64,000 nt of DNA. It comes from Puccinia triticina. Lineage: Eukaryota; Basidiomycota; Pucciniomycetes; Pucciniales; Pucciniaceae. A program made the position numbers and the translations under genes. The stretch covers positions 3,589,501 through 3,653,500 of the forward strand of contig NC_070573.1 in the NCBI RefSeq assembly GCF_026914185.1. Direction: 5' to 3'. Below, piece after piece: positions 54,746-55,441 of the stretch. How positions within the stretch are numbered: position 1 is the stretch's first letter; each line of letters starts with the position of its first letter. The notes below the pieces were generated by a model that searched no databases, was not told where the DNA came from, and saw only the letters and a program-made list of their open reading frames with translations.

Positions 54746-54901
54746 TTTGGGGGCCTCATTGGGAAATTTTTCCCTGAAACCTTGGCTACCGTCCACTTAC
54801 CCAAAGTGTGACTTCTTTTTTCTCAGATACGTTTCGTGCGACCACGATCTCGTTCTTCGAATTCCCCATCGTCCATCTCGAAACCCTACCGGTATACCAG
54901 T

Positions 54902-55441
54902 AGTAAGTTTCTCGAGTCAAATCCCGAGTTTATACGTGTGTAGCTAAGCGCTAGCCTTCTAGTGTCTACCCGTCAAACCTCGCTACACAGCTTTTTCCAG
55001 TCCGACAGACCTAGACCCGCCTCTGCCAACGGAGAGAAAGCTAACGTCAGCGGCGACAACCCTCTCAATCGAAACTCAGCCCCACCTTCAGCCCCGCCAG
55101 CTGGGTCTAACGGAGTCGCGGAACTGTTCGACCAGTTGTTCAGACGAACCGGCAATACCGCGGACCCCGGTCATCGAGACCCAGCGATAGCTCAAGCAGC
55201 TCCAGGGGCCCCGGCCATCGATCCTGCTCTCTCGGCTACGACTAGCCGGCCTGCTCACCCAACGGTTGCTAGGTTGATCAACGATATCCGATCCCGCGAG
55301 ACCTCCTTAGCGAGAGGCTCCACCGCCGAAGTCGAAAGACAGCTTACGCTTGGCGATTACATCCGGCTCAATAGCACGGTGCGAGGGACCTCGCCAGAGA
55401 GCACTGAGTCCATAATAGTTATTACGGAACCAACGGGTTAG
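54902..55441 (+). CDS. Gypsy ORF0: accessory protein with N-terminal PIP box, start made by splicing
   Basis: After removal of 54903-54962 the frame is ATG (A54902 plus TG 54963-54964) to TAG at 55439-55441, 160 codons. The N-terminus MSTRQTSLHSFFQSD fits the PCNA-interacting consensus Q-x-x-(L/I/M)-x-x-F-F with basic flanks, and resembles the N-terminal PIP box of MSH6-type mismatch-repair proteins. The rest is Pro/Ala/Ser-rich and disordered-looking, with short helical stretches (VAELFDQLFRR, STAEVERQLTLGDYIRL). No ATG precedes the junction in the transcribed leader. Two stops (TAG TCC TAA) separate it from the same-frame gag ATG 12 nt further on, so it is a separate protein. Function is inferred, not shown. 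Confidence 0.65.
54903..54962 (+). other. 60-nt intron whose removal creates an ATG
   Basis: Begins GTAAGTTTC and ends CTTCTAG, with GCTAAGC as a possible branch site about 12 nt from the 3' end. The exon before ends in ...CCAGTA and the exon after starts TGTCTACC, so the junction reads AGT-ATG-TCT. An optional longer upstream intron (54504-54826, GTAAGT...TTTTTTCTCAG) would also remove the LTR-leader border. Splicing is predicted from consensus only. Confidence 0.65.

Follow-up and report, generated by a model that had tools for sequence, protein, structure and literature searches.

A predicted splice-built start codon and three-exon accessory gene in a Ty3/gypsy-type retrotransposon of Puccinia triticina

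Complex retroviruses obtain regulatory proteins from doubly spliced messages, as related in the sections cited here (PMC1839114). In the deltaretroviruses bovine leukemia virus (BLV) and human T-cell leukemia virus type 1 (HTLV-1), the cited portions describe a transcript driven by the long terminal repeat (LTR) that yields Gag-Pol when unspliced and the tax/rex regulatory proteins when doubly spliced, from coding exons that overlap other frames (PMC1839114, PMC6714889). Here we describe a comparable arrangement, predicted from the DNA, in an LTR retrotransposon of the rust fungus Puccinia triticina. The element lies in a 64,000-nucleotide (nt) stretch of contig NC_070573.1 (positions 3,589,501 to 3,653,500, forward strand; hereafter the window), and very probably carries an accessory gene of three exons, superimposed on its leader and the beginning of gag, whose AUG would be assembled at a splice junction.

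Drosophila gypsy-type errantiviruses produce env, which is encoded after pol, from a spliced RNA. The rust element resembles them in being a Ty3/gypsy element with a further protein from spliced RNA, here a prediction, but that protein is small and leader-proximal, and the Pol frame runs on into the 3' LTR. The rust element likewise differs from the tax/rex viruses in having no env region, its accessory exons sitting instead in the leader and over gag; moreover, a junction-built AUG is not described for tax/rex in the portions cited (PMC1839114, PMC6714889). Yeast GCR1 offers a parallel of another kind: according to the cited excerpt, its unspliced RNA is translated from an intronic AUG, which splicing removes, and another is then used (PMC7826247). 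An intron-borne AUG that is used on unspliced RNA and lost on splicing is also what we predict here, whereas GCR1, in the same excerpt, is a host gene with a whole AUG in exon 1 whose two products are forms of one protein (PMC7826247). A keyword search of the open-access literature, covering titles and abstract openings, found no LTR element with a splice-built AUG, and hence no counter-example to the novelty stated in the preliminary description of this locus.

A gene of this design is invisible to ordinary open reading frame (ORF) callers and to transposon annotation because it has no genomic ATG, is divided between two frames, and has its second half beneath gag. Should comparable switches exist in other LTR elements, some of those now annotated as having just gag-pol may prove more complex. 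The arrangement would also provide a clean natural test of scanning, because the AUG met first would depend on splicing and on nothing else.

The predicted split start codon and intron 1

The window reads ...TATACCAGTA/GTAAGT...GTAGCTAAGCGCTAGCCTTCTAG/TGTCTACC, where slashes mark the predicted splice sites, and the predicted junction 54902^54963 joins an A from exon 1 to TG from exon 2 to give ATG. The preliminary description of this locus had proposed an intron with precisely these ends, and its bounds hold to the nucleotide: 54903-54962 is exactly 60 nt, opens with GTAAGT, closes with CTAG, and leaves an A/TG junction. Its further remark that the frame has no genomic ATG and would be missed by a caller or started at GTG is equally accurate, since the frame 54963-55441 contains no in-frame ATG up to its TAG stop at 55439-55441 and the ORF lister begins at GTG 54962.

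Relatives were gathered from the element's own genome (122.8 Mb, 18 contigs), in which the 30 matches of a DNA search represent, by our count, 24 elements. A search at the protein level returned 56 matches, and a degenerate pattern modelled on the exon 2 start found 22 places against none for a control pattern. The sample comprises 46 distinct elements—the 24 from the DNA search, 12 with long flanks, and 10 covering just 241-246 nt around the start—and excludes five protein-search places at which alignment to the query starts no earlier than residue 4. These 46 form 12 clusters at 85% identity across the first 38 nt of exon 2. They were aligned at the split start by anchoring on the peptide that follows the junction, independently of splice signals.

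Directly before the anchor peptide, AG/TG is present in all 46 elements, and the genomic triplet at the start site is GTG in every one and ATG in none. A donor was found in 43 (42 with GTAAG, and L074 with GTAAAC), and in 42 of these 43 it is preceded by the A that would make ATG on joining. In 42 of 46 elements GTAAG lies no more than 130 nt upstream of the acceptor, compared with 0, 1, 0, and 0 of 36 for four equally long control stretches, and 11 of the 12 clusters have at least one member with A/GTAAG. The conservation of the A/GT...AG/TG arrangement, which the preliminary description had named as a check, is thus borne out across these relatives. The introns range from 54 to 106 nt; between subfamilies A, B, and C their interiors are unalignable, while both ends align. 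In 12 of 14 representatives a loose pattern, scored without a control, picks out a branch-like word 11-41 nt upstream of the 3' end of the intron; L060 and L075 have none.

Predicted intron 2 and exon 3, and selection on overlapping frames

The predicted donor of intron 2, G/GTTAGT, overlaps the exon 2 stop codon (GGT TAG T). The exon 3 start was recognised in 25 elements, 20 of which have GTTAGT at most 140 nt upstream of it; among those 20, the intervening intron holds an ATG in 19 (the exception is L006) and the phase joins exon 2 to exon 3 in 18 (L003 and L008 are out of phase). The motif is missing upstream of exon 3 in the other five (L011, L024, L025, L046, and L057), of which L025 reads GTGAGT, so that the donor is kept and the exon 2 stop is gone. 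Two conserved introns, and with them a doubly spliced message, are part of the prediction, and from their conservation we infer that both are spliced in RNA. The three-exon product would comprise 361 residues, beginning MSTRQTSLHSFFQSDRPRP and reading ...SIIVITEPTGLR across the join of exons 2 and 3. The preliminary description had the spliced ATG open a frame of 160 codons; that frame is there and is constrained, but it appears to be just exon 2 of a longer spliced gene.

The codons that follow the first junction are under purifying selection. Substitutions in exon 2 cluster at third codon positions, and the ratio of nonsynonymous to synonymous substitution rates (dN/dS) is 0.09-0.27 in seven of 11 pairs, dS being saturated in the remaining four. 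For the accessory frame, dN/dS over the first 100 exon 3 codons is 0.04-0.24 in the eight nearer pairs; the two most distant pairs give 0.27 and 0.40. The Gag frame, in the same columns, gives 1.8-5.8 in seven of 10 pairs. The Gag frame, mostly unconstrained here, tightens once exon 3 has ended: its dN/dS falls from 4.3 to 0.18 for L001/L019, from 4.1 to 0.17 for L001/L020, from 2.7 to 0.18 for L001/L021, and from 3.3 to 0.09 for L060/L081. For three further pairs the downstream dS is saturated, with values inside exon 3 of 1.2 (L056/L060), 0.62 (L001/L060), and 0.72 (L019/L060). Given this contrast between the inside of exon 3 and the region downstream, exon 3 overprints the first part of gag, where it is the accessory frame that selection keeps between the nearer subfamilies.

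A proposed switch and its alternatives

Transcription presumably starts about 30 nt downstream of the TATA-like box at 54330. The 1094 nt from that point up to the Gag ATG (54360-55453) contain no ATG, whereas dinucleotide shuffles of the same stretch hold 6.1 on average and lack one in only 3 of 2000. For the joined stretch of six representatives, the fraction of ATG-free shuffles ranges from 0/1000 to 0.026. The end of exon 2 was located in 21 elements, 15 other long loci being excluded because no GGTTAGT was found in them. Of these 21, exon 2 has no ATG in 14, one in six, and two in L012; the 330 nt before the acceptor are ATG-free in 20 of the 21, the donor-less L058 having two.

With leader and exon 2 both free of ATG, a ribosome scanning the unspliced RNA should reach the Gag-Pol AUG (55454) first. 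Removal of intron 1 would bring the last A of the leader onto TG, creating the only AUG of the accessory frame and the first to be met on spliced RNA; removal of intron 2 would take away both the exon 2 stop and the Gag AUG, and reading would shift into exon 3. In essence, splicing would pick between two products of one transcript, Gag-Pol or the accessory protein. The scanning switch is a reading of anatomy. The whole of it—a three-exon accessory gene, a splice-built AUG, and a choice by splicing between Gag-Pol and the accessory product—builds on intron signals, frames, selection, and an ATG-free leader that recur across subfamilies, and we consider it very likely.

Several observations weigh against it. 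Three relatives (L017, L058, and L067) have no recognisable intron 1 donor, and in L024 the donor is preceded by G, such that the junction would give GUG. Seven of the 21 elements counted above hold one or two ATGs within exon 2. Intron 2 of subfamily C contains a second ATG that shares the reading frame of exon 3, which would make exon 3 readable there without splicing too. In three of the 10 pairs the Gag frame over exon 3 has a dN/dS of 0.62, 0.65, and 0.97. The gene model PTTG_29060 (P0001), as we read it, uses the same donor with an acceptor equivalent to position 54990; we rejected that acceptor because its use would leave the constrained frame. In five copies (L010, L013, L014, L015, and L016) exon 2 stops at codon 43 and FS replaces FF, with the intron 1 signals kept. 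They have the appearance of a subfamily that spread despite a defective accessory gene, and the broken exon 2 shared by all five suggests that an element can spread without supplying the accessory protein in cis. Finally, a search for intronless copies, using junction patterns for intron 1 (subfamilies A and C), intron 2, and a candidate intron 0 considered below, with up to three mismatches, found none; a reversed control pattern gave one match. This absence fits spliced RNA not being reverse transcribed, and it fits an absence of splicing too.

How far do other explanations account for the same signals? One holds that intron 1 builds the AUG and that the product is a protein of 160 codons, intron 2 being unused and Gag being reached by reinitiation or leaky scanning. 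The exon 2 frame does stop 12 nt before the Gag ATG, a distance that suits reinitiation; yet the exon 3 frame, with no ATG near its start in the window copy, is the most constrained frame there, and the intron 2 signals (donor, phase, and acceptor) recur, L025 keeping the donor even without the stop. We regard this explanation as improbable. Still less probable is a gene without splicing, in which exon 2 begins at the genomic GUG (54962-54964) on unspliced RNA. GTG is found at the site in 46 of 46 elements, but AG/TG makes GTG inevitable, so that its presence adds nothing for a GUG start, and GUG is a poor start codon in eukaryotes. Such a start leaves unexplained why a donor should be present in 43 of 46 elements, why A should precede it in 42 of 43, and why donors should be so rare in the control stretches. 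That the signals arose by chance in decaying repeat copies, with no working gene, has next to nothing to recommend it: many copies are indeed broken in Gag or exon 2, but A/GTAAG is found in at least one member of 11 of 12 clusters, and codon constraint in exons 2 and 3 is strong.

The three-exon gene may be accompanied by a further, tentative intron that begins in the LTR. In 10 of 14 elements GTAAG precedes the presumed primer-binding site, at -243 to -279; in L006 it is displaced to -516, and in L016, L023, and L067 it is absent from the corresponding part of the LTR. At the other end, a pyrimidine-rich AG can be made out by eye in subfamilies A, B, and C and in L013 and L046. These signals suggest that splicing of intron 0 would remove the presumed primer-binding site, which would explain why intronless copies were not found.

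The predicted protein and its host element

LINE-1 ORF2p has a PIP (PCNA-interacting protein) box; the rust sequence has a PIP-like motif in an LTR element. The window copy reads QTSLHSFF, which fits the PIP-box form QxxhxxFF, and five copies read QTSLRSFS. The cited part of one account defines the PIP box as QXXhXXaa and gives KRRQTSMTDFYH for p21 (PMC3491057). Like p21, in that same part, the rust protein combines QxxhxxFF with RQTS followed by L or M (PMC3491057); it departs from p21-type PIP boxes in that its putative motif stands at the very N terminus and has no TD pair before the aromatics. Our anchor peptide pattern was of our own choosing and is itself PIP-like, so the conservation of the motif among anchored elements is no independent count. 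Judged by the motif, the N-terminal QxxLxxFF may dock the protein on PCNA, perhaps assisting in the completion of complementary DNA (cDNA) or in integration where DNA is being replicated. Through a conserved PIP-like motif, an LTR retrotransposon would have a tie to the replication machinery of its host. That all three hold jointly—a switch like that of complex retroviruses, an LTR intron whose removal of the primer-binding site leaves spliced RNA uncopied, and p21-like docking on PCNA—is a combination we consider quite possible, while stopping short of calling it probable.

Beyond the motif, Pfam has no match for the exon 2 or exon 3 frame. Among solved structures, a sequence search with the 25-residue N terminus returned nothing, and a profile search with exon 3 found no relative. 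The predicted fold of exon 3 has a mean predicted local distance difference test score (pLDDT) of 62, with a helical region at residues 21-80 (pLDDT 83-89), a low-confidence middle, and a C-terminal helix; Foldseek against the PDB gave three matches for this model, all with E above 7, and hence no fold match. In the protein database an exon 2 query gave three matches, and among the best 8000 candidates by shared words the exon 2 alignment gave seven and the fused protein two. Exon 2 relatives of named source are PTTG gene models, and no relatives in viral contigs were confirmed. By our count, P0008 and the L024 exon 3 frame share all but one of their first 85 residues. Two database proteins from small contigs, P0006 and P0007, start MASRQTSLDQFF and MSSRQTSLHSFF at the position of the split start.

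The host is a Ty3/gypsy-type LTR retrotransposon, in keeping with the gypsy setting assigned by the preliminary description. Its paired LTRs carry TG...CA ends and are flanked by a target duplication, the mark of an LTR retrotransposon, and the order of the Pol domains is that of gypsy (Metaviridae): reverse transcriptase (RT), RNase H, integrase. In the frame 58556-61531, Pfam places RVT_1 at residues 22-177, RNase H at 242-371, Integrase_H2C2 at 496-554, and rve at 574-670; the matches to Retrotrans_gag in the Gag-Pol frame (E 0.043), to Chromo (E 0.087), the domain of the chromovirus branch, and to SH3_Tf2-1 (E 1e-5) each fall short of the curated cut-off. The Pol frame runs to 61531, past the start of the 3' LTR at 61427, so the env after pol that marks a complex retrovirus is absent. 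In the window copy an in-frame TGA (58553-58555) breaks Gag-Pol, and Pol resumes in the same frame at 58556.

Table 1 Features of the element and of its predicted accessory gene, in window coordinates
Feature	Position	Strand	Basis or remark
Target duplication GTAAC, 5 nt	54059-54063 and 62115-62119		Flanks of both LTRs
5' LTR	54064..54745	+	679/688 alignment columns identical to 3' LTR
TATA-like box	54330..54335	+	Sequence reading
Candidate intron 0 (tentative)	54504..54826	+	LTR donor GTAAGT to pyrimidine-rich AG past presumed primer-binding site
Presumed primer-binding site, TTTGGGGGCCTCAT	54746..54759	+	Conserved, adjoining the LTR
Leader exon 1 (predicted)	54827..54902	+	5' end hinges on candidate intron 0; final A is base 1 of the split start codon
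Intron 1 (predicted), 60 nt, GTAAGT...CTAG	54903..54962	+	Donor in 43/46 and AG/TG in 46/46 relatives
Exon 2, accessory gene (predicted)	54963..55436	+	TG of split AUG, 157 codons, and one base; dN/dS
PIP-like motif QTSLHSFF	54974..54997	+	Residues 5-12; conserved in alignment and anchored peptides
Intron 2 (predicted), 82 nt	55437..55518	+	Donor G/GTTAGT, acceptor CACTAG/GT; contains Gag-Pol ATG
Gag-Pol frame	55454..58555	+	ATG within intron 2; weak Retrotrans_gag match
Exon 3, accessory gene (predicted)	55519..56129	+	Two bases, 202 codons, and stop; overprints start of Gag frame
Pol frame continuation	58556..61531	+	RT, RNase H, integrase, Tf2-1-like SH3 (Pfam matches)
3' LTR	61427..62114	+	LTR-LTR alignment

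Other retroelement sequence lies nearby in the window. Minus-strand frames lie between direct repeats of about 300 nt at 48823-49145 and 53419-53723, which are 97-98% alike with a spacing of 4.6 kb, and probably belong to another LTR element adjoining the one studied here. Plus-strand stretches at 27413-29720 match the Pol frame at 22-26% identity and represent a further, distant retroelement.
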